Assembly: GCA_002839315.1 (NCBI GenBank)
Contig: PGXV01000012.1
Span: 1 to 64,000, forward strand
DNA from: Spirochaetae bacterium HGW-Spirochaetae-3
GTDB lineage: Bacteria; Spirochaetota; Spirochaetia; Treponematales; UBA12059
DNA length: 64,000 bases
Direction of reading: 5' to 3'
Positions 20,561 to 32,370 of the stretch are shown piece by piece. Position 1 is the stretch's first letter. The number at the start of each line of letters is the position of its first letter. The notes beneath the pieces were generated by a model, which saw only the letters and a program-made list of their open reading frames with translations, ran no database searches and was not told the origin of the DNA. The translations under genes and the position numbers were made by a program.

Positions 20561-21016
20561 TCAGTTGTCCTTGCTTATCTCGCTTTCGTAGAGATCCTCG
20601 AAATAGCGCTTGTGCCGGCTCTCCTCCGCGACCAGCCGCTCGAAGACGGATTTGAGCCCGGGCTGCGAGGCGGCCTCGGCAAGCCGCTCGTAGAGGACGC
20701 CCGATCGCTCCTCCTTCTTGATGGCCGCGACGAGTATGTCCTGGAAGGTCATGCCCGCGGTCGGCCTCTCCTCGGCGTCCATCCTCGCGGCGAGCCCCAG
20801 GTCGACGGCGACGGTCGGAGACAATGCCACGCTCCCTTTCGCCTTCATGCCGGAGATCATCGCGACGTGGCCCTCCTCCATGGCCATGAACTCGGCCAGC
20901 GTCGATTTCTGGGCCGCGAACGACGCCATGGCCGACAGCTCGCGGTAGAACGCCACCGCCGCCTTCTCCCTTCCGAGGGCGAGGTCGAGGGCGGCGGCGA
21001 AGGTGGTAGCGTCCAT
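20561..21016 (-). CDS. rubrerythrin-like diiron protein
   Basis: A 151-residue ferritin-like four-helix protein. Predicted iron ligands are Glu17, Glu47-x2-His50, Glu102 and Glu132-x2-His135, the rubrerythrin pattern. It lacks the C-terminal rubredoxin domain of classical rubrerythrin, so it needs an outside electron donor. It starts 1 nt after the stop of the ferredoxin-GltD fusion and is the last gene of the 13-gene operon. Its likely task is removing peroxide or sensing iron/oxygen to protect the iron-sulfur clusters of the complex (inference). Confidence 0.82.
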   Translation of the reverse strand: MDATTFAAALDLALGREKAAVAFYRELSAMASFAAQKSTLAEFMAMEEGHVAMISGMKAKGSVALSPTVAVDLGLAARMDAEERPTAGMTFQDILVAAIKKEERSGVLYERLAEAASQPGLKSVFERLVAEESRHKRYFEDLYESEISKDN

Positions 21017-21017
21017 G

Positions 21018-22814
21018 TCAGGCTCCTTTCCCGTACAGCAGGCGGTCGATGCCGATGGCCGCCCGGTGGCCGTCGGCTATCGCCGATATCGCGTCCTTGC
21101 GGTCGTTGACGAGGTCTCCGCCGGCGAAGACCGGAGCTCCTCCGGCTGCCCGGGTCGCCATGCCGAAGGAATCGACGACGGGCCTGAAGCGCTTCACGGG
21201 TACCCCGTCGGACTCGGCGATGAAGGACAGGTCGGGTCCCTGTCCTATCGCCGCGATGATAGAGTCGTAGCGACCCTCGCGGACGGCGCCGGGGATGGGT
21301 TCGGGGACGGGGCGCTTGCCGGGCTCCTTCTGGACCATCGTCGCCTCGTTCCAGATGAACAGGGCGGCCTCGCCCGCGGCGTCGGGCGCATCCCTTACCT
21401 CGAGCGGGATGGCCTTCTCGACGAGGCGGGCTCCCTCGGCCTTGGCCTCCCGTACCTCGTCGGCGTCCGCGGGCATGTCCTCCTCGCGGCGGCGGTACAG
21501 GATGTCGACCGTCGCGCCGTGCCTGAGGGCCGTCCTCGCCGCGTCCATCGCGACGTTCCCTCCGCCTATGACCGCGACCCGCCCGCCCAGGCCGAGCTCT
21601 TCTCCCCGCGTCGCCCGGGCAAGCACGGCGACGCCGTCCAGTACGCGGGGATGATCCTCACCGGGCACCTCGAGGCCGTACGCCACCGGTAGCCCCGTGG
21701 ACAGGTACACGGCGTCGAAATCGGTGCGCAGCTTTGAGAGCTCGATGTCCTTGCCTATGGAGACGCCGCGGCTGATGGAGACGCCGAGGCTCTCGATATA
21801 GCCTATGTCCTTGTCCAGCGCGGGATAGGGCAGGCGGTACTCCGGGATGCCGTAGCGAAGCATGCCGCCCGCGGCCTCTTCCGCCTCGAACACGGTCACC
21901 GCGTGGCCCTGCATCGATAGGTAGTACGCCGCGGAGAGGCCTCCCGGGCCCGCGCCTACGATCGCTACCTTCTTGCCCGAGGGCGCCGCGCCCCGCGGCA
22001 GGGCCTTTGCGTAGTCCGATAGCTCAACCTGGTCGGCGATATAGCGCTTGAGCCAGCGTATCGCGACCGGGTCGCCGCCCGAGCCTATGGAGCAGGCTTC
22101 CTCGCAGCGGTGGGTGCATACGCGGCCGCAGGCCTCGGGGAAGGGGTTCGTCTCGTAGAGGAGGCGGAGTCCCTCGTCCATATCGCCGTCGCGAACGGCC
22201 TTGATGTAGCCCGGTATGTCCATGTGAGCGGGACAACTGGCGATACAGAGCCCGCAGGAGACGCAGCGGTCGGCTTCCTTCTCGGCCTGGGCCCGCGAGT
22301 AGCCCCTGACCAGCTCGAGGAAGGAGGCGACCGCCTCCGCGTGGCCGAGTTCCGGCATGGGGACGCGGTCCTCGTCGAGCAGGCGATAGCCCTCCGCCCG
22401 GCGGTAGCCGAGCGCCGAGCCGTCCCACGGCTTGGCCTCGACGCCGGGCACGTAGCGGAACACGTCGGGATCTCGGTCGATCCAGACGTACTCGTTGCTC
22501 ATGGACAGCGATCCCGACGGGCATATGTCCACGCAGAGCGCGCACCAGCAGCAGCGGCCGTAGTCGATACGGGGCCTGAGGCCGGAGTCGCCGTCCTTCG
22601 CCTCCCGTCCGGCCGCCGGCACGAGGTCGATGGCGTTGTTCATGCAGATCGCCTCGCAGGTGCCGCATCCGACGCACGCGTCGGCGTCGTTCATATGGAA
22701 CCCGCGGTAGCGCGGGGCGCCCGGCCGTTCGTCGATCGGTTTCTTGACCGTGAACGGCTTCTCGAAGGCGCGCTTCCAGACCGCGAAGGGCGCTATGAAG
22801 TCCTTTATGTCCAT
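21018..22814 (-). CDS. NuoI/MbxN-like ferredoxin fused to GltD-type FAD/NAD(P)H oxidoreductase
   Basis: A 598-residue fusion. The N terminus is a two-cluster ferredoxin like complex I NuoI or MbhN/MbxN: Cys47-50-53-57 and Cys88-91-94-98. Residues 170-600 are a glutamate synthase small subunit (GltD/NfnB) module: another Cys184-187-190-194 set and Cys229-233-237-241, an FAD-binding GAGPGG motif at 287-292, and a second dinucleotide site GGGNVAMDAA near 405-415. No glutamate synthase large subunit is nearby. Predicted role: electron entry/exit unit that links NAD(P)H to the peripheral arm encoded by the next genes. It lies 4 nt after the large-subunit gene. Confidence 0.88.
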   Translation of the reverse strand: MDIKDFIAPFAVWKRAFEKPFTVKKPIDERPGAPRYRGFHMNDADACVGCGTCEAICMNNAIDLVPAAGREAKDGDSGLRPRIDYGRCCWCALCVDICPSGSLSMSNEYVWIDRDPDVFRYVPGVEAKPWDGSALGYRRAEGYRLLDEDRVPMPELGHAEAVASFLELVRGYSRAQAEKEADRCVSCGLCIASCPAHMDIPGYIKAVRDGDMDEGLRLLYETNPFPEACGRVCTHRCEEACSIGSGGDPVAIRWLKRYIADQVELSDYAKALPRGAAPSGKKVAIVGAGPGGLSAAYYLSMQGHAVTVFEAEEAAGGMLRYGIPEYRLPYPALDKDIGYIESLGVSISRGVSIGKDIELSKLRTDFDAVYLSTGLPVAYGLEVPGEDHPRVLDGVAVLARATRGEELGLGGRVAVIGGGNVAMDAARTALRHGATVDILYRRREEDMPADADEVREAKAEGARLVEKAIPLEVRDAPDAAGEAALFIWNEATMVQKEPGKRPVPEPIPGAVREGRYDSIIAAIGQGPDLSFIAESDGVPVKRFRPVVDSFGMATRAAGGAPVFAGGDLVNDRKDAISAIADGHRAAIGIDRLLYGKGA

Positions 22815-22818
22815 CGTC

Positions 22819-23982
22819 TCACCTCTCGATTTCCGGGGGATAGGTGTGGAGGCTGACCATGAGGCCCGCCACGTCCGCTATGTTGACGCCGCGGACGAGC
22901 CGCTCCATCACCGATACCGCGTGCGTGTAGCTCGGGCCGCGCACCGCGACGCGGCGGGGCTTGTCCGAGCCGTCGGATACGACGTAGAAGCCGTATTCGC
23001 CCCGGGTGCACTCCGCCGAGACGTATGTCTCGCCCGCGGGTATCCTCCAGTACAGCGGATTCGGAAGCCGCTCGCGGAACGGGCCGTCCTTCGGCGCCAT
23101 ATCGACGATCTGCCGTATCAGGTCTATCGCCTGGTACATCTCGCCGAGGCGTAGCCTCGCTCGCTCGTACGCGTCAGACTCGGTGCCGACGATGGGCTGG
23201 AAGTCGAGCCTGGGGTAGGCGAGGTACCCCGAGTCCTTGCGCAGGTCGCGAGCGACGCCGGCGGCGCGCGCGTTGGGGCCGGTGATTCCGTAATGGTCGA
23301 CCCAGTCCCTGGGGATGTAGCCGAGGCCCTCGGCGCGCATCTTGAAGACGGCGTTGTGGAACATCACCAGCTCGATGTCGTCGAGGTTCTTCTCGACGAC
23401 CGCCATGGTCTCGAGGACGCGCTTGTAGAAGCCGGCCGGGACGTCTCCGCGGACGCCGCCGGGTATGATGTACATGTGGTATATACGGCCGCCCGTCAGC
23501 TCCTCGAAGAGGTCGAGGACGTAGTCGCGCATCGTGACGCTCCACTGGGCTATCGTGCCGTGGCCGAACGCGCCGGCCTGGCCGCCTATCCACATGAGGA
23601 AGCTGGCGAGCCGCATCATCTCCAGCGACAACGTGCGCAGCCAGACGGCTTTCTCCGGAATTACGATGCCCGCGAGCTCCTCGAGCGCCGCCGCGTAGCA
23701 GTACTCGTTGAAGTCCGGCTCTGGTACCGCGATGCGGCAGACGAGCGGGAAGTTCTGCATGTACAGGCGGCGTTCCATCAGCTTCTCGAAGCCTCGGTGC
23801 AGGTAGCCGACGTGCGTCTCGCAGTCGACGACCGTATCCCCTTCGGCCACGAGCCGCAGGGACATGTTGCCGGTGATGCCGGGATGCTGAGGGCCTTGCC
23901 ACATGACCAGGTACTTGCCCGAATCCAGGTCCGGCGTCGCCCGCTCGGCCGGGGGTATAACGCGCTGCTTCTCTCGCCTCAT
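22819..23982 (-). CDS. NuoD/MbxL-like large subunit without [NiFe] cysteines
   Basis: A 387-residue homologue of complex I NuoD and group 4 hydrogenase large subunits. It keeps GPQHPG (30-35), GYLHRGFEK and EKAVWLRTLSLEMMRLASFL. In [NiFe] enzymes two CxxC motifs bind the metal; here the first reads RIAVPE (residues 83-88) and the second, at the C terminus, HTYPPEIER, so all four ligands are absent. It is therefore not a hydrogenase. It resembles MbxL-type or complex I-type subunits. It overlaps the NuoC-like gene by 4 nt (ATGA). Confidence 0.88.
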   Translation of the reverse strand: MRREKQRVIPPAERATPDLDSGKYLVMWQGPQHPGITGNMSLRLVAEGDTVVDCETHVGYLHRGFEKLMERRLYMQNFPLVCRIAVPEPDFNEYCYAAALEELAGIVIPEKAVWLRTLSLEMMRLASFLMWIGGQAGAFGHGTIAQWSVTMRDYVLDLFEELTGGRIYHMYIIPGGVRGDVPAGFYKRVLETMAVVEKNLDDIELVMFHNAVFKMRAEGLGYIPRDWVDHYGITGPNARAAGVARDLRKDSGYLAYPRLDFQPIVGTESDAYERARLRLGEMYQAIDLIRQIVDMAPKDGPFRERLPNPLYWRIPAGETYVSAECTRGEYGFYVVSDGSDKPRRVAVRGPSYTHAVSVMERLVRGVNIADVAGLMVSLHTYPPEIER

Positions 23983-24512
23983 TGAGCGGCCTCCGGATAG
24001 AGCTTCTCTCTCATATGGGAGGCGGGGTCGTGCGTGACGCGGCCGGGCCGCTCCGCGTAGGTCGCGTCGCTATAGGCCAGCGAGTCGAAATCGCGCCTCA
24101 TCATCGGCGGACCCTCCCAGCCCTCGAGCACGAACTCCTCGTCGACCCGCGGGCTGCCCGGGAAGTCGATGCCGAACCATTCCCTCATCTCGCGCTGGTA
24201 GGTCCAGGCCTGTCCCCACAGGAGGTGGATCGAGTCTACCGTCGGCTCGGCCCGGTCGACGTCCGCGTGGACGATCAGCCCGCGCCGGGCGTCGTGGTCG
24301 CGTAGCGCGTAGCTGAGGGTGAAGGCGCCGCGCTCGATATTATCGATCGCCGTCATGAAGGACAGGTGCCCGTACCCCGCCTCGTCGCGCAGGTACGCCA
24401 TGACGTCGCGTATCCTGATTGCGTCGACCTCGACGGAGGCCAGGTCCTTTCGTATGTCGTGCCAGCCGCGGGCGCCGTAGCGTCCGGCGAGCTCTTTCGC
24501 CAGTTCGTTCAT
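23979..24512 (-). CDS. NuoC/MbhK-like 30-kDa subunit
   Basis: A 177-residue protein of the complex I 30-kDa subunit family. The signature region is visible as WTYQREMREWFGIDFPGSPR (about 113-132) followed by the RRDFDSLAYSD segment. It has no cofactor; in relatives it stabilises the NuoB-NuoD junction. A GGAG precedes the ATG, and it overlaps the next gene by 4 nt. Confidence 0.87.
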   Translation of the reverse strand: MNELAKELAGRYGARGWHDIRKDLASVEVDAIRIRDVMAYLRDEAGYGHLSFMTAIDNIERGAFTLSYALRDHDARRGLIVHADVDRAEPTVDSIHLLWGQAWTYQREMREWFGIDFPGSPRVDEEFVLEGWEGPPMMRRDFDSLAYSDATYAERPGRVTHDPASHMREKLYPEAAQ

Positions 24513-24522
24513 CTACGGTCTC

Positions 24523-25152
24523 CTACCAGTTGTAGTCGGGCATGTTCCAGTCCTTGATGACCTTCTTCTGGTTCGCCTTGTACCAGTCGAAGTTGCGGGC
24601 GTACTCGTTCTGCCCCTCGCCGCCGCCCGACTTGATTATCCTCTTGAGCTCCTGGAAGCCGGCGAGCAGCGCCTCGGGCCGCGGCATGCAGCCGGCTATG
24701 TACACGTCCACCGGGATGTACTGGTCTATGCGCTTGATGGTGTTGTAGCTGTCCCAGTACATGCCCCCGTTGATGGTGCACGAGCCGAGGGCGAGCACGA
24801 ACTTCGGCCCCATCATCTGCTCGTAGCTGCGGACGATGCGCTTGAGGGTCTTCACCGACGCGTAGCCGCCTATCACGAACACGGACGACTGCCGAGGCGT
24901 CGGCCTGGGCTGGATGCCGTAGCGGTACATGTCGAAACGGCTCGTCATCAGCGGGCGTAGCTCTATGGCGCCGCAGCCGGTCCCGAATCCCAGGAGCCAC
25001 AGGCTCTCCGATCGAGCCCAGTTTAGGAAGCGCTCCCAGGCGCCCCTGGCGGGCTCGTATTCGCGGGGGGCGGCGTCGCAGAACAGTCCGCGCTCCTCGG
25101 GCGGCAGGCCCTCGTTCGCGAGGGGCGCCGGTATCGTTTTCTTCTCGCTCAT
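24523..25152 (-). CDS. NuoB/MbxJ-like iron-sulfur subunit
   Basis: A 209-residue homologue of the small subunit that carries the cluster nearest the active site. Ligand positions seen are Cys60 in FGTGCGAIE, Cys125 in GSCTINGGMY and Cys155 in AGCMPRPEALL. Complex I has two adjacent cysteines at the first position and hydrogenases a CxxC; here residue 61 is Gly, so one canonical ligand is missing (Cys25 might substitute). A GGAGG site precedes the ATG. Confidence 0.88.
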   Translation of the reverse strand: MSEKKTIPAPLANEGLPPEERGLFCDAAPREYEPARGAWERFLNWARSESLWLLGFGTGCGAIELRPLMTSRFDMYRYGIQPRPTPRQSSVFVIGGYASVKTLKRIVRSYEQMMGPKFVLALGSCTINGGMYWDSYNTIKRIDQYIPVDVYIAGCMPRPEALLAGFQELKRIIKSGGGEGQNEYARNFDWYKANQKKVIKDWNMPDYNW

Positions 25153-25162
25153 TGCGCGCCTC

Positions 25163-26077
25163 CTAGATGACTGCGATGATGACCGAGGCTATGCCGACGA
25201 GCGTCGGCGCGCCGAGGAAGAACCTGATCGACTGGTCGGTCCGGAGCCGCGGGAAGGCCTGGCCGACGAACACGTTGACGAAGTAGATCAGGAAGGTCTT
25301 GATCACCATCGCGACGATGTTCGTGGCCCCGCCGAAGTACAGGTTCATGTACAGCACGAGCTTGGCGCCGTTGAATATCGCCCTGTTCGTCTGCAGCATG
25401 CCGAGCAGGTTGCTCTGGTACTCGGTCGGCGGTCCTATCGGGATCTCCTGCGGCGCTATGACGACGCTGAACGGGTTGTGCCCCGACATGCCGAGGAACG
25501 CCACTATCGCGGCTATCACGGCCAGCGGATTGGTCGCGAGCGTCCAGTGGGCGAAGCCGCCCTGCTGGGCCGCGACGATGGCGTTGATGTCGAGCGTGCC
25601 GTACTGGGCGGCCACCGCTATCACCGACAGCGCGAACGGCACCTCGAAGGCGGTCATCTGCGCGAGGCCCCGGCTGACGCCTATGGCGCTGTACGGGTGC
25701 CCGCCCTCGCCGGCGCCGAGCGCCATGCCGAGCTGCCCGAAGAAGATGAAGTACATCACGAGGAGGAGGTCTCCCGAGTCGGAGAAGTTCCTGAACAGGA
25801 CGGAGCCGAATACCGCGGGTATGAACATGTAGGTGCCGACGCCTCCCGCGAGCCTGAATACCGGCCCTAGGTAGAACATCGCGCCGTGGCCTATGGAGTT
25901 GCGCTTCGCGGAGCTCTTGACGATGTCTATGTACGGCTGCCAGACCGGCTGGCCGACGCGGCCCTGGACCTTGGCGCTTATCCTCGCCATCGATCCTATG
26001 AGGAGGAGGCCGTAGTTCGTTATGACGAAGAGCGAGACGAACGCGTAGCCTATGCGTCCTATGATCGTCGGTTCCAT
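25163..26077 (-). CDS. NuoH/MbxM-like membrane subunit
   Basis: A 304-residue membrane protein with about eight helices, homologous to complex I NuoH, which joins the peripheral arm to the ion-pumping arm. The conserved loop GRVGQPVWQPYIDIVKSSAK (39-58) and AFEVPFALS are present. The start at 26077 shares one base with the stop of the antiporter fusion (TGATG); the upstream extension of the open frame lies in that gene. Confidence 0.9.
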   Translation of the reverse strand: MEPTIIGRIGYAFVSLFVITNYGLLLIGSMARISAKVQGRVGQPVWQPYIDIVKSSAKRNSIGHGAMFYLGPVFRLAGGVGTYMFIPAVFGSVLFRNFSDSGDLLLVMYFIFFGQLGMALGAGEGGHPYSAIGVSRGLAQMTAFEVPFALSVIAVAAQYGTLDINAIVAAQQGGFAHWTLATNPLAVIAAIVAFLGMSGHNPFSVVIAPQEIPIGPPTEYQSNLLGMLQTNRAIFNGAKLVLYMNLYFGGATNIVAMVIKTFLIYFVNVFVGQAFPRLRTDQSIRFFLGAPTLVGIASVIIAVI

Positions 26078-29000
26078 CAGAGGGCCCCCGTCAGCAGATA
26101 GAGCGCCACGACGTATAGTACGACGTGGAGGGCATAGGTCTGCCCGTTGCCGGTATAGACGCGCCTTATCGCGCCGCCTACGGAATCGACGCCGGTGCCG
26201 AACGCCTCCCAGAAGCGCTCGCCCCTGCGTCGCGTCAGGAAGCCGAGCGCCTTCTCGTACGGCGCGTAGAAGCTCCACGCGTAGTGCGTTGTCCAGGGCT
26301 TGAAGGGCCGCTCGGCGGCGTACACGATATTGAACTGCTTGACCGGCTGCGGGTTATGCAGGTTCGCGAGCATCCAGAAGAAGCACAGCGCGAACACGAC
26401 GATAGTCACTATCATCGATAGCGTGCCGTCCCAATAGCCTAGCGGCGAGACGAGCGTCGATCCCTCGAAGCGGAGGATGGGATCGAATACATCCCCGACC
26501 ACCCCCATGACGGGATCGAGCATCAGCCGCGGGAAGGCGGACGCGGCGAGCAGGACCGCCATCAGGAAGCCTTGCGGAATGGTCAGCGCCAGCGGGGCCT
26601 CCCTGACCGTCGACTGGGACGGCTTCGGCTGCCCGAGGAAAATGGTGTGTATGAGCCTGAACAGGTACAGGAAGGCCACGGCGCTCGCGAAGAACGCGAC
26701 GGCGGCCTCGAGGTACCAGCCCTTCTGGAGGAGCGACGAATAGAGCAGCCACTTACCGCCGAACCCCGAAAGCGGAGGCACGCCGGATAGCGCTATAATG
26801 GCCATCAGTACCGACAGGAACGAGAACGGCATAGTCTTTATGAGGCCGCCCATCTCGTACATGTTGCGCGTGCCGACCCGCTTGATGACGCCGGCTATAG
26901 CGAGGAACAGCATGCTCTTGTAGAGGAAGTGATTGAGCGCCAGGTACAGCGCCGTCGTCCATCCGGCCTGGTCGTTTATCGCCAGCGCGAGTATCACGTA
27001 TCCGATCTGGCCCATCGACGACCATGCCAGCGTCTTCTTGACGTCTTCCTGATAGATAGCGTATAGCGCTCCGAACAGGGCCGTCGCCAGTCCTATCCAG
27101 CCGAGGGCCCGTAGCGTAAGCGCCTGGAACGGTACGACGCCTCCGAAGGCCGCGAGCGCGACGATCATGACGAAGACGCCGGCCTTGGACAGCGAGGATG
27201 ACAGGAAGCCCGAGACGTCGTCGTCGGACTCGGCGTAGGCGCCGGGAAGCCAGACGTGCACGCCCAGCGCGCCGAGCTTGACGAGGAGGCCGCCTATGAT
27301 GAGGAGGATAGGCCAGCCGTCCGCGCCGCCCGTCGGCCGGAACGACCACGCGCCGGGAATGGCCGCGAGGCCGACCATCAGCAGGAAGGCTCCGCCCAAT
27401 CCGAAGACGACGTAGCCGAGCGCGGCCCTCTCGCCCTTCTTGCCGCGGAGCACGAGCAGGTAGCTCGCCAGGGTCATCGTCTCCCAGGCGAAGAAGAAGC
27501 CGAGCGGCGAGTCGGCGACCAGGATCGCGCCTAGCGCCAGCGTCGCGGCCGACAAGAGCGGATGCAGGCCGCGCCTGGGGCCCCGCTTGTACATCGCGGC
27601 GAAGGAGTACATCGCTCCTCCGCCGAGCAGCATGACGGCGAAGAATAGCCGCAGGCCGTCGAGCCTGTCGAAGGCGAGCCGGCCGAAGGCGGCGACGGCC
27701 GCTATCGATAGGAGCGACTTGAGCCAGCCAGGCGCGCGGTCGACGAGGAGCAGGGCCGCCAGCGCCGCGAAGGGCGCCCAGAGGAGCGGGTCGCCGACGC
27801 CGAGGGCGAGGCCGGATGCGATACCGAAGCCGGCGAGCGCGGCGGCGCACAGCGCCGGCCCGGCGATACCGGCTTCCGGTCCCGCGTACCCGTCTTCGCC
27901 CCGCATGTCGGCGATTCTTCCGAACCAGCGAAGCACGTAGAAGGCCTCGACGAGGCTGGCTCCCAGGATGACGACGATAAGCCACCACTGCCTCGCCCCG
28001 GCGAGCGCCCTTATCAGGCTCCACTTGGCCCAGAATCCGGGGAAGGGAGGCAGGCCGACGAGGCCGACCGCCAGGACGCCGGCGATCGCCGTGCCGATCG
28101 GCGACAGCGCGCGTTCGCGCCTACGCTGGGCGCCGGCCTGCGAGCCGGGCTCGCCCAAGGCGCGCGAAAGCAGGAAGAGCCCGGTCTTGGCCAGCAGGTG
28201 GTTAAGGAGCAGCCCGCCCGCGACCATATAGGCGAAACGGTCATCGCCGAGGGATAGAAGCCTCGTAAGGGCCGCGACCGCGGCTACGAGCCCGACCTGC
28301 GCTACCGAGGAGTAGCCGAGCATACGCCTCGCGTTCGATTGCCTGGCGCCTACGAGGTTGCTCGCGGCGAAGGTCGCCAGGCCGCTACCGGCGACGACCG
28401 ATAGCTGCGCATCGCCCAGGATAGGCATGATCTTCCAGAGCGCCAGGAGCAGGGCCGTCGCAGACGCGCCCGACAGGATGGCTGAGAGGCCGGGATCGAC
28501 CGTCTGGTATACGTCGATGGCCCACCCGTTGGCCGGGAACGGCTTGAGCTCGATGAGAAGCGCGGCCAGCAGGAAGAATGCCGCGACGGTTCCCGCGGCG
28601 CCGTATAGCCCCGGCGAACGCGCCGCGAGGTCTATGTTAAGCTGGCCCCCGAAGCGGTACGCGTATATGACGCCGATCAGGTAGAGGGCGCTGGCGATGC
28701 CGCCGGCCATCATGTACTTGAATCCGGCGCGGAGCGCGGCCCTGCGGTCGTCGTAGGCGATGAGGCCGTAGGTGGCGATCGATGAAATCTCCATGAATAC
28801 GAACAGGTTGAAGAGATCCCTCGTCAGAATGATGCCCGACATGCCCATCAGGGCCATGAGCAAGGCTATTGCGCCCCCTATAGGCGCCTTGGCGAGCGAA
28901 CGGTGCATGGCGCCGGCCGAGAGAAGGCCGACGGCCGAGACGGCGAGGAGTCCGGCGGCCTCCTCGGGGCCGACACGAAGCATGATGGCCAGCGGGGCGG

Positions 29001-29199
29001 CGAATCCCGCCGTGCCGAAGCTCTCCGTCGGCGAGCCTCCCGGGAACAGCGCCCAGAGGTACGATAGCGCCGCCGCGCCCCATGCGGCCACGGTCGCGTA
29101 CGCCAGTCCGAGCGATGCCTTCCTGCCTAGCTTGTCGACGAGCGGCAACAGGAACGCCGCCGCGAGCGAGCAGGCGAATAGATAGAGCGGATTTACCAT
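26077..29199 (-). CDS. fused double antiporter-like subunit (MrpD/NuoN type x2; MbxH-MbxH')
   Basis: A 1040-residue polytopic protein made of two MrpD/NuoN-like ion-pumping modules in one chain. Module 1 (about 1-500) has Glu137 in FMEISS and Lys219 in IELKPFP, the same numbers as the essential MrpD residues. Module 2 (about 515-1040) has Glu573 in AWETMT, Lys641 and His648 in the VKLGALGVHVWLP segment, and Lys761. In Pyrococcus Mbx these are two proteins, H and H'. No internal stop or frameshift was seen. It begins 7 nt inside the mrpC gene with GGAGAGG 4-5 nt upstream. Confidence 0.9.
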   Translation of the reverse strand: MVNPLYLFACSLAAAFLLPLVDKLGRKASLGLAYATVAAWGAAALSYLWALFPGGSPTESFGTAGFAAPLAIMLRVGPEEAAGLLAVSAVGLLSAGAMHRSLAKAPIGGAIALLMALMGMSGIILTRDLFNLFVFMEISSIATYGLIAYDDRRAALRAGFKYMMAGGIASALYLIGVIYAYRFGGQLNIDLAARSPGLYGAAGTVAAFFLLAALLIELKPFPANGWAIDVYQTVDPGLSAILSGASATALLLALWKIMPILGDAQLSVVAGSGLATFAASNLVGARQSNARRMLGYSSVAQVGLVAAVAALTRLLSLGDDRFAYMVAGGLLLNHLLAKTGLFLLSRALGEPGSQAGAQRRRERALSPIGTAIAGVLAVGLVGLPPFPGFWAKWSLIRALAGARQWWLIVVILGASLVEAFYVLRWFGRIADMRGEDGYAGPEAGIAGPALCAAALAGFGIASGLALGVGDPLLWAPFAALAALLLVDRAPGWLKSLLSIAAVAAFGRLAFDRLDGLRLFFAVMLLGGGAMYSFAAMYKRGPRRGLHPLLSAATLALGAILVADSPLGFFFAWETMTLASYLLVLRGKKGERAALGYVVFGLGGAFLLMVGLAAIPGAWSFRPTGGADGWPILLIIGGLLVKLGALGVHVWLPGAYAESDDDVSGFLSSSLSKAGVFVMIVALAAFGGVVPFQALTLRALGWIGLATALFGALYAIYQEDVKKTLAWSSMGQIGYVILALAINDQAGWTTALYLALNHFLYKSMLFLAIAGVIKRVGTRNMYEMGGLIKTMPFSFLSVLMAIIALSGVPPLSGFGGKWLLYSSLLQKGWYLEAAVAFFASAVAFLYLFRLIHTIFLGQPKPSQSTVREAPLALTIPQGFLMAVLLAASAFPRLMLDPVMGVVGDVFDPILRFEGSTLVSPLGYWDGTLSMIVTIVVFALCFFWMLANLHNPQPVKQFNIVYAAERPFKPWTTHYAWSFYAPYEKALGFLTRRRGERFWEAFGTGVDSVGGAIRRVYTGNGQTYALHVVLYVVALYLLTGAL

Positions 29200-29573
29200 T
29201 TTTCCTCTCCGTATGATTCTATTGAAGAATCGCCGCCGCCCGTCCTCAGCCGCACCGCGTAGCTGAGCATAAGCGCCGTGACCGCGAGTCCGATGACGAT
29301 GGCCGTCAGCACCAGCGCCTGGGGGACCGGGTCGGTCATACGGGCGGATGCCGACCGGGCGTCGGCCGCCGAGTCGAGGATGGGCGCGGTCCTGCCGCGT
29401 ATATAGCCGACGGACAGGATGACCAGGTTGACGCCCGTCTCCATCACCGAGAAGGCTACCGCTATCTTGAACAGGTTCGGCCTGGAGAGGACTCCCCACA
29501 GTCCTACGAGCACGAGGACGGCGCCCGAGGCGGCGACCGGGTTGATCCCGGCGATGAATGCCATGACGCTCAT
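29193..29573 (-). CDS. MrpC/NuoK-like subunit (MbhG)
   Basis: A 126-residue protein with three helices of the NuoK/MrpC/MnhC family. It has GLWGVLSRPNLFKIAVAFSVMETGVNL, where the Glu in the second helix is conserved, and a DPVPQALVLTAIVIGLAVTA third helix. It overlaps its neighbours on both sides by 4-7 nt. Confidence 0.9.
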   Translation of the reverse strand: MSVMAFIAGINPVAASGAVLVLVGLWGVLSRPNLFKIAVAFSVMETGVNLVILSVGYIRGRTAPILDSAADARSASARMTDPVPQALVLTAIVIGLAVTALMLSYAVRLRTGGGDSSIESYGEEKW

Positions 29574-30265
29574 GGTCGATCCCCTTTCAGCGCCTCTATG
29601 ATGCCGGATAGCTCTGCGCCTACCTTGAGGCCGATGGCAGAATAGATAAGCGGTATGGTACCGGCGCTGACGAGCGAACCGATGGAGCCTGTCGGCATGA
29701 CGCGCGGGTCGAGGAACCCCCAGGCCAGGAAGGCGCCGAGCAGGCCTATCGCGACGTAGGCGGCGCCGGAAAGGGCCTCGACGGCGGTCATGACGCCGTG
29801 CGCCAGGTGCGATTCGGGAGCGGCGAGCACGTTGAGCAGCACCGCGGTCGCGATGACGACGCCTCCCTGGAACCCGCCGCCGGGCGTTAGGTGACCGTGC
29901 ATGAAGATGTAGGCGCCGAACATGACGATGAGGCCGGTCAGTAGCCCCGTGGCCGTCCTCAATACCTCGGTAGCTGGCTTCCTTCGGCCGACGGCGGCCG
30001 GGCCGAGGCGCTTCCTCGTCAGCATCGCGCCGACGCCGGCGGTCGCTACGAACAGTACCGCTACCTCGCCGAGGGTATCGAATCCCCGATAGCTGACGAC
30101 GATAGCGGTTACGACGTTAGCCGCCCCGAGCTCGCGCGGCGCGGTCTCGAGGTATTCCGTAGCCAGCGCGCCGGGTTCGGCCTGTACCCCGGCCCTGAAG
30201 GCGAGGGGGAGGAGCGCGAAGGCGAAGCCGATGATCGCCAGCGTCACCATGACCTTCCTCATCAT
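29570..30265 (-). CDS. MbhE-MrpB (MbhF) fusion membrane subunit
   Basis: A 231-residue membrane protein combining an MbhE-like N-terminal half (about 1-85; equivalent to part of the MrpA C terminus, motif YRGFDTLGEVAVLF) with an MnhB/MrpB domain (about 100-225; GHLTPGGGFQGGVV). In Pyrococcus Mbh these are separate subunits. GGGAGG lies upstream of the start, and it overlaps the MbhD gene by 4 nt. Confidence 0.88.
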   Translation of the reverse strand: MMRKVMVTLAIIGFAFALLPLAFRAGVQAEPGALATEYLETAPRELGAANVVTAIVVSYRGFDTLGEVAVLFVATAGVGAMLTRKRLGPAAVGRRKPATEVLRTATGLLTGLIVMFGAYIFMHGHLTPGGGFQGGVVIATAVLLNVLAAPESHLAHGVMTAVEALSGAAYVAIGLLGAFLAWGFLDPRVMPTGSIGSLVSAGTIPLIYSAIGLKVGAELSGIIEALKGDRP

Positions 30266-30561
30266 TTCGAGCCTCCCGACCGGGACGCCGGAGCCTCGAG
30301 CCGTTCGTTCGAGTCTTCGTCGTCCGCCTGCCTCGACCGCGCGAGCGCGTACAGGAATACGACCGTCGTCAGGCCTGAGCCGATGGCGGCCTCGGTCATC
30401 GCGACGTCCGGCGCTCCCATGAGGAGGAACACGACGCTGGCGGCGAGGCTGACGCCCCCTGACAGCAGTATCGATACGACGAGGCTCTTCGAGGCTATCG
30501 CGCCGATACCCGAGGCGACCATGAAGGCGCCCGCTACGATGATCGCTATATCAATCGCCAT
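30262..30561 (-). CDS. MbhD-like subunit (DUF4040)
   Basis: A 99-residue protein with three helices, matching the DUF4040/MbhD family (part of the MrpA C terminus). The motif GAPDVAMTEAAIGSGL (49-64) contains the conserved acidic residues. The tail is charged and cytoplasmic. It overlaps the MrpG gene by 11 nt. Confidence 0.87.
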   Translation of the reverse strand: MAIDIAIIVAGAFMVASGIGAIASKSLVVSILLSGGVSLAASVVFLLMGAPDVAMTEAAIGSGLTTVVFLYALARSRQADDEDSNERLEAPASRSGGSK

Positions 30562-30904
30562 GGTCTTCCCCCCTCGGCCCTTCGGCGGCGTCGGATTCCG
30601 CGAGCGCGTCCGGCTCCAGCCTGGCCCCGAGGCGCTCGCGGTAGCCGTGGGCCGCTCGGGCGAGGGCGTTGGAGCTGACGGGATTGGTAAGCACGATGAA
30701 GGCGACGAGCAGGAGCAAGCGCCCGAGATACTCGGGCCGCATGATGCCGACGCCGACGAGGAACAGTATCGATCCCAGCGTCGTCGCCTTGGTCCCCGCC
30801 TGCATCCGGTTGAACGCGTCCGGCATGCGCAGGAGCCCTATAGCCGACAGGAGGAAAAAAAGCGCCCCGACGAGGCTTACGAACGCGCCGACGATCTCGG
30901 TCAT
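30551..30904 (-). CDS. MrpG/MnhG-like subunit (MbhC)
   Basis: A 117-residue MrpG-family protein with three helices and the family segment LLRMPDAFNRMQAGTKATTLG (about 24-44). The role in Mrp/Mbh complexes is structural, in the sodium/proton-translocating part. Start and previous stop share TGATG. The C-terminal tail is charged. Confidence 0.88.
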   Translation of the reverse strand: MTEIVGAFVSLVGALFFLLSAIGLLRMPDAFNRMQAGTKATTLGSILFLVGVGIMRPEYLGRLLLLVAFIVLTNPVSSNALARAAHGYRERLGARLEPDALAESDAAEGPRGEDHGD

Positions 30905-31164
30905 CAGAGCCCCCCTTCAAGGTAGCGGGCCATGGCGACTACGCCGACGAACCCTACGAGGCCGTAGACCATGCCTACGTCGATATAGATGCGCCTTCCG
31001 GAGAACACGGCGAAGGCGACGATCAACGACGTCACGATGATCGTCATCGCGTCGAGCGCTACCGTGCGGTCTATCGCCCATGGGCCCTTCGCGAACCGGA
31101 TGCCGGCGAGAAGCAGGCCCAGAGTCGCTACGCAGGTGGCGGCGACGAATATCGAATCAGCCAC
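30904..31164 (-). CDS. MrpF/MnhF-like subunit (MbhB)
   Basis: An 86-residue protein with three helices. The family motif GPWAIDRTVALDAMT (27-41), with its conserved acidic residues, is clear. It overlaps the MrpE gene by 8 nt and abuts MrpG. Confidence 0.9.
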   Translation of the reverse strand: MADSIFVAATCVATLGLLLAGIRFAKGPWAIDRTVALDAMTIIVTSLIVAFAVFSGRRIYIDVGMVYGLVGFVGVVAMARYLEGGL

Positions 31165-31654
31165 AGATCACCTCCAGGTATTTTTCGAAGTCGCTGACTA
31201 TAGCCTCCGTGGCGCCCTGCGGATCGGCTGACGCTACCTTGATCCAATGGACGAACACGTCCTCTCCTCGCATCTCGACGGTAATGGTGCCTGGGGTCAG
31301 CGTGATCGAGTTGGCTAGCAGGAGCCTCCCGAGCGGCGTTCGCAGGGTAGTCCTGACCCTGACGATGCCGGGAGCGATCGGTAGGCGAGGGTGAAGGACC
31401 CGGAACGCTACGTCCAGGTTCGAGAGGACGAGCGCCTTCAGGAAGACGAGCGCGTACGCGACCATGTATACGATGGCCTTCGGGTTGATCCTCAGGTCTC
31501 CCAGGTGCGACGTCGGGAACCATGGAAGGATCACGATGAGCGCGGCGACGATGGCGCCCGCTACGGCTTCTTGCTCGTTCCAGGGCGAGGTCAGCAGCAG
31601 CCACGCGCACCAGAGTAAAAGGAATCCCAGCATCTTGGCCTTCAGTGTTCTCAT
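31157..31654 (-). CDS. MrpE/MnhE-like subunit (MbhA)
   Basis: A 165-residue MrpE-family protein with two N-terminal helices and a cytoplasmic domain containing NSITLTPGTITVEM, the family signature. It is the first gene of the operon. The start at 31654 is chosen because GGGAGG sits 7 nt upstream; an earlier ATG has no such site. A strong promoter lies about 55-80 nt upstream. Confidence 0.9.
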   Translation of the reverse strand: MRTLKAKMLGFLLLWCAWLLLTSPWNEQEAVAGAIVAALIVILPWFPTSHLGDLRINPKAIVYMVAYALVFLKALVLSNLDVAFRVLHPRLPIAPGIVRVRTTLRTPLGRLLLANSITLTPGTITVEMRGEDVFVHWIKVASADPQGATEAIVSDFEKYLEVICG

Positions 31655-31705
31655 GGAACGCCCTCCCATGCATTATGCCCGCCGTCGCGGGCGAATGGAC
31701 ACATT

Positions 31706-31763: not shown

Positions 31764-31792
31764 TTGCGAAACGGGTTGGCCGCCATTATCAT
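31764..31792 (+). promoter_or_regulatory. candidate promoter of the CBS-domain gene
   Basis: TTGCGA, 17 bp, TATCAT, back-to-back with the operon promoter on the other strand. The leader to the ATG at 31912 would be about 110 nt; no riboswitch-like structure was recognised in it. Confidence 0.4.
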
Positions 31793-31911
31793 TGAGTGGT
31801 GGTCATGCGCGGATCGCGCGTCTAGAAACTATAGTGGATGCGGATTCGGTTTGGCGAATATTTTTCGTTTTTTTCGATAATCGACCGTCAATCGACGAGG
31901 AGGAGAGAACC

Positions 31912-32370
31912 ATGGAAACCGTACAGAGCATCCTGGCCGCCAAGGGCAACGTCGTCGTGTCCGTAGGCCCCGAGGTCGCCGTGAGCGAGGCGCTCATCAA
32001 GATGGCCGAGCGGAATATCGGAGCCATCCTGGTGACGGACGAGGACGGGAAGACGGTCGGCATCTTCTCGGAGCGCGACTTCGCGAGGAAGATCATCCTC
32101 AAGGGACGGAATTGCGATACCACCAAAGTCAAGGAAATCATGACCACCAAGGTCACCTACGCCGAACCGCGAACCACCCTCGTCGAGTGCATGAACCTGA
32201 TGACGTCCCACCATTTCCGCCATCTTCCTATCGAAGAGGACGGAAGGCTGGTAGGCGTCGTATCGATCGGCGACGTAGTCAAGGCGCTGATACGGCAACA
32301 GGAGCGCATCATCTCGGAGCAGGCCTTCGAGATCGGTCAGAACGAGCGCCGCTCTACCGGGGCGATATGA
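31912..32370 (+). CDS. CBS-domain pair protein
   Basis: A 152-residue soluble protein consisting of two CBS motifs (about 5-62 and 75-130), ending in a short charged helix. CBS pairs bind adenine nucleotides or NAD and act as energy sensors (family knowledge). It resembles stand-alone CBS proteins of anaerobes, including HRP1/CBS types with SERDFARKII. The ATG at 31912 follows GGAGGAGAG; the longer frame is not needed. Divergent from the energy-complex operon, so a link to that complex is conceivable but unproven. Confidence 0.85.
   Translation: METVQSILAAKGNVVVSVGPEVAVSEALIKMAERNIGAILVTDEDGKTVGIFSERDFARKIILKGRNCDTTKVKEIMTTKVTYAEPRTTLVECMNLMTSHHFRHLPIEEDGRLVGVVSIGDVVKALIRQQERIISEQAFEIGQNERRSTGAI

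Follow-up and report, generated by a model that had tools for sequence, protein, structure and literature searches.

The window (the whole stretch of 64,000 nucleotides from Spirochaetae bacterium HGW-Spirochaetae-3 that was analysed) contained a tight minus-strand run of genes in the order MnhE, F, G, MbhD, MbhE/MnhB, MnhC, a fused antiporter-like pair, NuoH, NuoB, NuoC, NuoD, a fusion gene and a rubrerythrin-family gene (Table 1), with a promoter-like site at 31733-31706, before the MnhE-like first gene. The fusion gene was the 12th of the run, with gaps of 4 bp and 1 bp around it, and encoded a 598-aa protein; a plus-strand reading of the same interval was rejected, as that frame is closed and the ORF sits on the minus strand.

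Table 1. Features of the minus-strand run, in order of transcription.
Feature	Positions	Strand	Basis
MnhE-like subunit, first gene of the operon	31157..31669	-	profile match
MnhF-like subunit	30904..31164	-	profile match
MnhG-like subunit	30551..30904	-	profile match
MbhD-like subunit	30262..30561	-	profile match
MbhE + MnhB-like subunit	29570..30265	-	profile match
MnhC/MbsG-like (NuoK-like) subunit	29193..29573	-	profile match
Two antiporter-like subunits (MbsH and MbsH' counterparts) in one ORF of ~1040 aa, with C-terminal extension	26077..29199	-	
NuoH/MbsM-like membrane anchor	25163..26077	-	
NuoB/MbsJ-like subunit, three-Cys proximal cluster (C60, C125, C155), TGCG for the complex I CC	24523..25152	-	
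NuoC/MbsK-like subunit	23979..24512	-	
NuoD/MbsL-like large subunit without [NiFe] cysteines; His38 (Nqo4 numbering) replaced by Thr, MbsL-like VPEPD in the Tyr87 region	22819..23982	-	
Fusion: MbsN/NuoI-like 2x[4Fe-4S] domain (aa ~1-115), linker, NfnL/GltD-type module (aa ~147-595)	21018..22814	-	profile and structure matches
Rubrerythrin-family protein with a ferritin fold, ~1 bp past the fusion and closing the run	20561..21016	-	

Several features of the gene neighbourhood recurred elsewhere. Antiporter-like ORFs of the ~1040-aa class were found at 47 loci and separate ORFs at 9. A rubrerythrin-family gene was the commonest immediate downstream neighbour of the fusion (about one third of the loci, in several phyla, e.g. 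L088, L035 and L095); CBS-domain proteins (14) and DHODH-like proteins (11) were further recurrent neighbours of the operon. In the window, a CBS-domain protein (31792-32370, plus strand) was encoded divergently from the operon start, and CBS proteins recurred downstream of the operon at other loci.

The two halves of the fusion protein matched different families. Residues 5-111 were nearest, among solved structures, to MbsN (6u8y_N, 80.9 bits), with NuoI of complex I second (49 bits), and residues ~147-593 matched NfnL/GltD (5jca_L, 265 bits). The Pfam domains detected were Fer4-type domains near the N-terminus, Fer4_20 (E 3e-29) and Pyr_redox_2 (E 7e-22), and at the sequence level the protein resembled GltD (TIGR01316, 283 bits). 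In the AlphaFold2 model (pLDDT 87, pTM 0.84) the fold of the C-terminal module was nearest to NfnL of Nfn (5jca_L, TM 0.89 by target length), with GltD (6s6t) behind at 0.85. The proposal of the sequence-only reading, a NuoI-like ferredoxin and a GltD-type flavoprotein in one chain, was therefore confirmed by the domain matches. Its count of sixteen cluster cysteines was also correct: these lie in three CxxCxxCxxxC motifs (C47/50/53/57, C88/91/94/98 and C184/187/190/194) and one CxxxCxxxCxxxC motif (C229/233/237/241), and the GltD-type module itself bears two of the four [4Fe-4S] motifs. All 17 cysteines of the protein were invariant among the 94-95 homologues aligned; the 17th, C89, lies outside the motifs, beside ligand C88, and was kept in every aligned relative.

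A single FAD site (GAGPGG at 287) and a single NAD(P) site (GGGNVA at 417, with YRRR) were found. The second Rossmann motif reads ILYRRREEDM, and its YRR aligned with the YRR of the NADP(H)-bound Pf NfnI (5jca); judging from this motif of an NADP(H)-binding NfnL, use of NADPH is expected in the clade of the window. About half of the relatives carried T(S/C/A)LE plus an insertion instead of YRR, and this LE motif is possibly NADH-specific. On the family tree (a quick tree, motif columns included) the two motifs marked two clades with one change between them (47/47 rows, SH-aLRT 100). Among cultured relatives, Thiothrix caldifontis DSM 21228 belongs to the LE type and 'Candidatus Marispirochaeta associata' JC231 to the YRR type. 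Another GltD-type protein of the genome of the window (L002 1075-3825, minus strand) had an LE-type motif, FCLETRDIM, and not YRR.

The upstream genes were compared with the solved complexes. NuoD scored 325 bits against MBS (6u8y), 215 against complex I and 136 against MBH; NuoB scored 221 bits against MBS vs. 135, and NuoH 143 vs. 57; NuoC matched weakly, with MBS still first; and for the antiporter-like ORF the MBH and MBS chains were near-equal at the top. In MBS, the proximal [4Fe-4S] cluster has only three ligand cysteines, from MbsJ, His38 and Tyr87 of complex I are missing, the [NiFe] cysteines are partly lost, and MbsN carries the distal and medial clusters, where electrons enter from ferredoxin (PMC7684303). 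The three NuoB cysteines of the window aligned with C28, C93 and C123 of MbsJ, and the non-ligand C25 was replaced by Gly; the three-Cys pattern, without the second cysteine of the CC pair, was present in 76/76 readable NuoB. An equivalent of Tyr87 was found in 0/87 readable NuoD, and His38 was absent from most (a few kept a His); in the window, VPEPD stands at the complex I DY site, as in MbsL. The two CxxC motifs for [NiFe] that characterize Group 4 [NiFe] hydrogenases were absent from this NuoD, and no second NuoD-type (PF00346) protein was found in the genome of the window.

The nearest solved relatives of NuoB, C, D, H and of the NuoI domain were thus those of Pyrococcus furiosus MBS (PDB 6u8y), of which MBX is the Thermotoga homologue, and the three-Cys proximal cluster, the lack of [NiFe] cysteine pairs and of the quinone tyrosine, and the Mrp-type Na+/H+ arm with two antiporter-like subunits are shared with it. 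There were also differences: MBS receives ferredoxin electrons via a stand-alone MbsN, whereas here the MbsN-like domain is joined to an FAD/NAD(P)H module; the antiporter-like subunits are in one ORF; and equivalents of MbsJ C25 and MbsL C85/C385 are absent. As a stand-alone MbsN was missing, the complex was classified as a variant of MBS, not as MBS proper. The label NuoI/Mbx-like, given on first reading, missed the MBS type (three-Cys proximal cluster, no quinone tyrosine), and with an MBS-type core a different electron acceptor is predicted. Complex I and the Nuo-Bfu complexes, in which BfuABC replaces NuoEFG (PMC9304861), share with this system the homology of peripheral arm and antiporters and a flavin module that feeds the arm, but the gene run contained neither NuoE/F/G nor Bfu, and the quinone-site tyrosine and the CC motif were absent.

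Fusion and NuoD were tightly linked. NuoD was in view at 91 of 94 fusion loci, and at 84 of these 91 it was located on the same strand, no more than 300 bp upstream; at the other 3 loci the contig stops just upstream of the fusion. The 80 loci that came from the GTDB genome scan were best matches, many of them close kin, and are biased to similar contexts; a sample of 296 Spirochaetota genomes was a fairer test. Thirteen of these genomes carried 15 fusions, and exactly the same 13 carried 15 NuoD relatives scoring at least 288 bits, a 1:1 match; the next full-length NuoD relative scored 225 bits, and the complex I-type or [NiFe]-type NuoD of this sample, all at 225 bits or less, kept the THG/DY or CGIC motifs. 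The two genes were adjacent in 14 of the 15 pairs, and in the remaining one (G089) both were at contig ends. The sequence-only reading had suggested co-occurrence with MbxL-type genes as a check; the fusion did co-occur with the complex I-like operon and was not found mainly outside such operons. In Thiosymbion nematode ectosymbionts (L052, L053) the fusion was 1-2.8 kb from NuoD, and the other operon genes detected were limited to NuoB, NuoC and NuoD. Taken with the fused domains, the linkage to a complex I-like operon makes the wiring of NAD(P)H to the peripheral arm through a single chain, as predicted from the genes alone, well supported.

The fusion architecture was already known by name only: the protein matched the NCBIfam model NF010590/PRK13984, “putative oxidoreductase”, over residues 2-595 of 598 (E 2e-193), with the same full-length domain architecture but a score under the cut-off (644 vs. 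946 bits), and 48/48 aligned relatives scanned matched the model, which assigns no function or complex. The GTDB scan confirmed 566 loci as relatives; the best 80 of the 566 were retrieved, and most of these matched over the full length. These relatives and the full-length match to NF010590/PRK13984 indicate that the fusion is not a product of chance or of assembly. The hosts belonged to Spirochaetota, Cloacimonadota, Bacteroidota, Neomarinimicrobiota, Fermentibacterota, Aminicenantes and Pseudomonadota, and the relatives listed included sulfur oxidisers and their kin (Thiothrix, Thiohalocapsa, Thiosymbion, Magnetospirillum). No description of the fusion, of PRK13984 or of an NAD(P)H-linked MBS was found in the open-access literature searched, and the arrangement, common to hundreds of anaerobic and sulfur-oxidising bacteria, has apparently never been studied.

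Electron bifurcation, raised as a possibility if two hydride-transfer sites existed, was not supported for the fusion chain, which carries a single FAD site and a single NAD(P)H site and whose operon contained no NfnS-like gene. The module resembles NfnL/NfnB and the GltD-type subunits of NfnABC/Stn in fold, FAD and NADP(H) sites and YRR motif, but it lacks an NfnS partner in the operon, and its output would go to the MbsN-type domain of the same chain. A role of the fusion as an Nfn subunit was rejected, since a genuine NfnS-NfnL pair is encoded elsewhere in the genome. At two relatives (L063 and L023) nfnSL flanks the operon; this connects the system with the NADPH pool and does not make the fusion itself bifurcating. 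C229 was considered as a hallmark against Nfn and dropped, as the NfnL of this genome also has Cys there. A 979-aa HydB/NuoF-like protein fused to another GltD-type module (L004 1273-4212, minus strand), with an [FeFe]-hydrogenase-like ORF after it, is a second case in this genome of a GltD module wired into an electron-transfer chain.

It is extremely improbable that the fusion is a GOGAT small subunit or a soluble oxidoreductase which adjoins the complex by chance. The resemblance to GltD seen with TIGR01316 speaks for it, and fold and cluster motifs are like those of GltD (6s6t), but the protein has an added MbsN/NuoI-type ferredoxin domain, NfnL folds are nearer, and PF01645, the glutamate synthase large subunit, gave only weak partial matches in the genome, none near the fusion. 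A position beside that subunit, which the sequence-only reading had named as evidence against itself, was therefore not seen, and the GOGAT role was rejected as the large subunit was not evident and the fusion was linked 1:1 to the MBS-type NuoD.

On balance we lean, by a modest degree, towards an MBS-type ion pump linked to NAD(P)H, with the fusion as the subunit where electrons enter and a sulfane or disulfide as the substrate, which would be reduced or, if the complex ran backwards, oxidised. By homology, NAD(P)H would bind at the NfnL/GltD module and pass a hydride to the sole FAD, from which single electrons would leave via the two [4Fe-4S] clusters of the module to the two clusters of the MbsN/NuoI domain, and then to the proximal [4Fe-4S] cluster of NuoB/MbsJ, with three Cys ligands as in MBS. 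This site-differentiated cluster might split the S-S bond of a hydrophobic polysulfide or disulfide, the exact substrate being uncertain, in the NuoB-NuoD-NuoH chamber, and the redox step would power the movement of Na+/H+ via the Mrp-type arm, with uncertain direction and stoichiometry; if the ion gradient were large, the flow could reverse, with reduction of NAD(P)+. The terminal acceptor, deduced from the MBS site, is energetically tight. MBS with ferredoxin yields 41 kJ per 2 e- (PMC7684303); calculated from this figure and textbook potentials, electron transfer to polysulfide would yield ~10-20 kJ per 2 e- from NADPH and ~2 from NADH, and transfer from NAD(P)H to menaquinone ~40-57 kJ. 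The NADPH value is little for two antiporter-type pumps, and this is the strongest argument for a quinone or for the assistance of ferredoxin, and for easy reversal. Two further points weigh against the sulfane/disulfide reading: the recurrent neighbours of the operon are rubrerythrin-family, CBS-domain and DHODH-like proteins and include no genes of sulfur metabolism, and the genome has a UbiA that would fit a quinone.

An NAD(P)H:quinone oxidoreductase, a substitute for complex I in which the GltD-type module stands in for NuoEFG and which reduces menaquinone and pumps ions, would have energy enough for two or more ions and would suit a genome that has no other NuoD-type protein and in which UbiA adjoins UbiD-/UbiX-like ORFs (by reading of translations); some family members also keep His at the His38 position. 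We nevertheless regard it as unlikely: Y87 of Nqo4 was absent from every readable relative and His38 from most, the CC pair of NuoB was lost, and MqnA/MqnD-type proteins were not found in the genome of the window. Rnf/Nqr-type genes are present in that genome. Six proteobacterial relatives that were checked (G296, G302-G306) also had a high-scoring complex I-type NuoD, which speaks against the quinone and is in favor of a main flow in the opposite direction, with thiols, persulfides or sulfide donating electrons at the three-Cys cluster and the ion gradient driving NAD(P)+ reduction. The small driving force would make such a reversal easy, and the sulfur oxidisers and kin named above include the genomes with both types of NuoD. 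As the main direction, however, it appears decidedly improbable: most of the relatives listed, including the lineage of the window, belong to Spirochaetota, Cloacimonadota and Bacteroidota, which are not known for sulfur oxidation, and no sulfur-metabolism gene recurred beside the operon at the ten loci inspected.

The complex might also be a ferredoxin/NAD(P)H hub, with ferredoxin docking on the MbsN-like domain, the flavin module exchanging electrons between ferredoxin and NADP+, and the MBS core reducing its acceptor, either by confurcation or as an overflow valve. Ferredoxin would supply the energy missing from NADPH; the N-terminal domain is nearest to MbsN, whose clusters take ferredoxin electrons, the folds nearest to the C-terminal module are NfnL of the bifurcating Nfn, and nfnSL stands next to the operon in two relatives. 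The single flavin site, the lack of an NfnS-type partner in the operon and of a second electron branch in the chain, and the separate nfnSL, which already handles ferredoxin/NADPH/NADH exchange, make this hub doubtful.

With the NAD(P)H-linked MBS-type pump as the preferred reading, the family could tentatively, with a chance somewhat short of even, represent a widespread undescribed class of bacterial respiratory complexes in which pyridine nucleotides are linked directly both to reactions of S-S bonds, carried out by a site-differentiated [4Fe-4S] cluster, and to the movement of Na+/H+, in two old lineages (YRR with NADPH, and LE possibly with NADH). MBS, in its known form fed by ferredoxin, is seen as connecting complex I with hydrogenases and Mrp antiporters; if the reading is true, an NAD(P)H-fed MBS would be another, independent pyridine-nucleotide input for this machinery besides NuoEFG. 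In the genome of the window it would be the role of the sole NuoD-type complex, and a “putative oxidoreductase” family present at hundreds of loci would gain a concrete candidate function.
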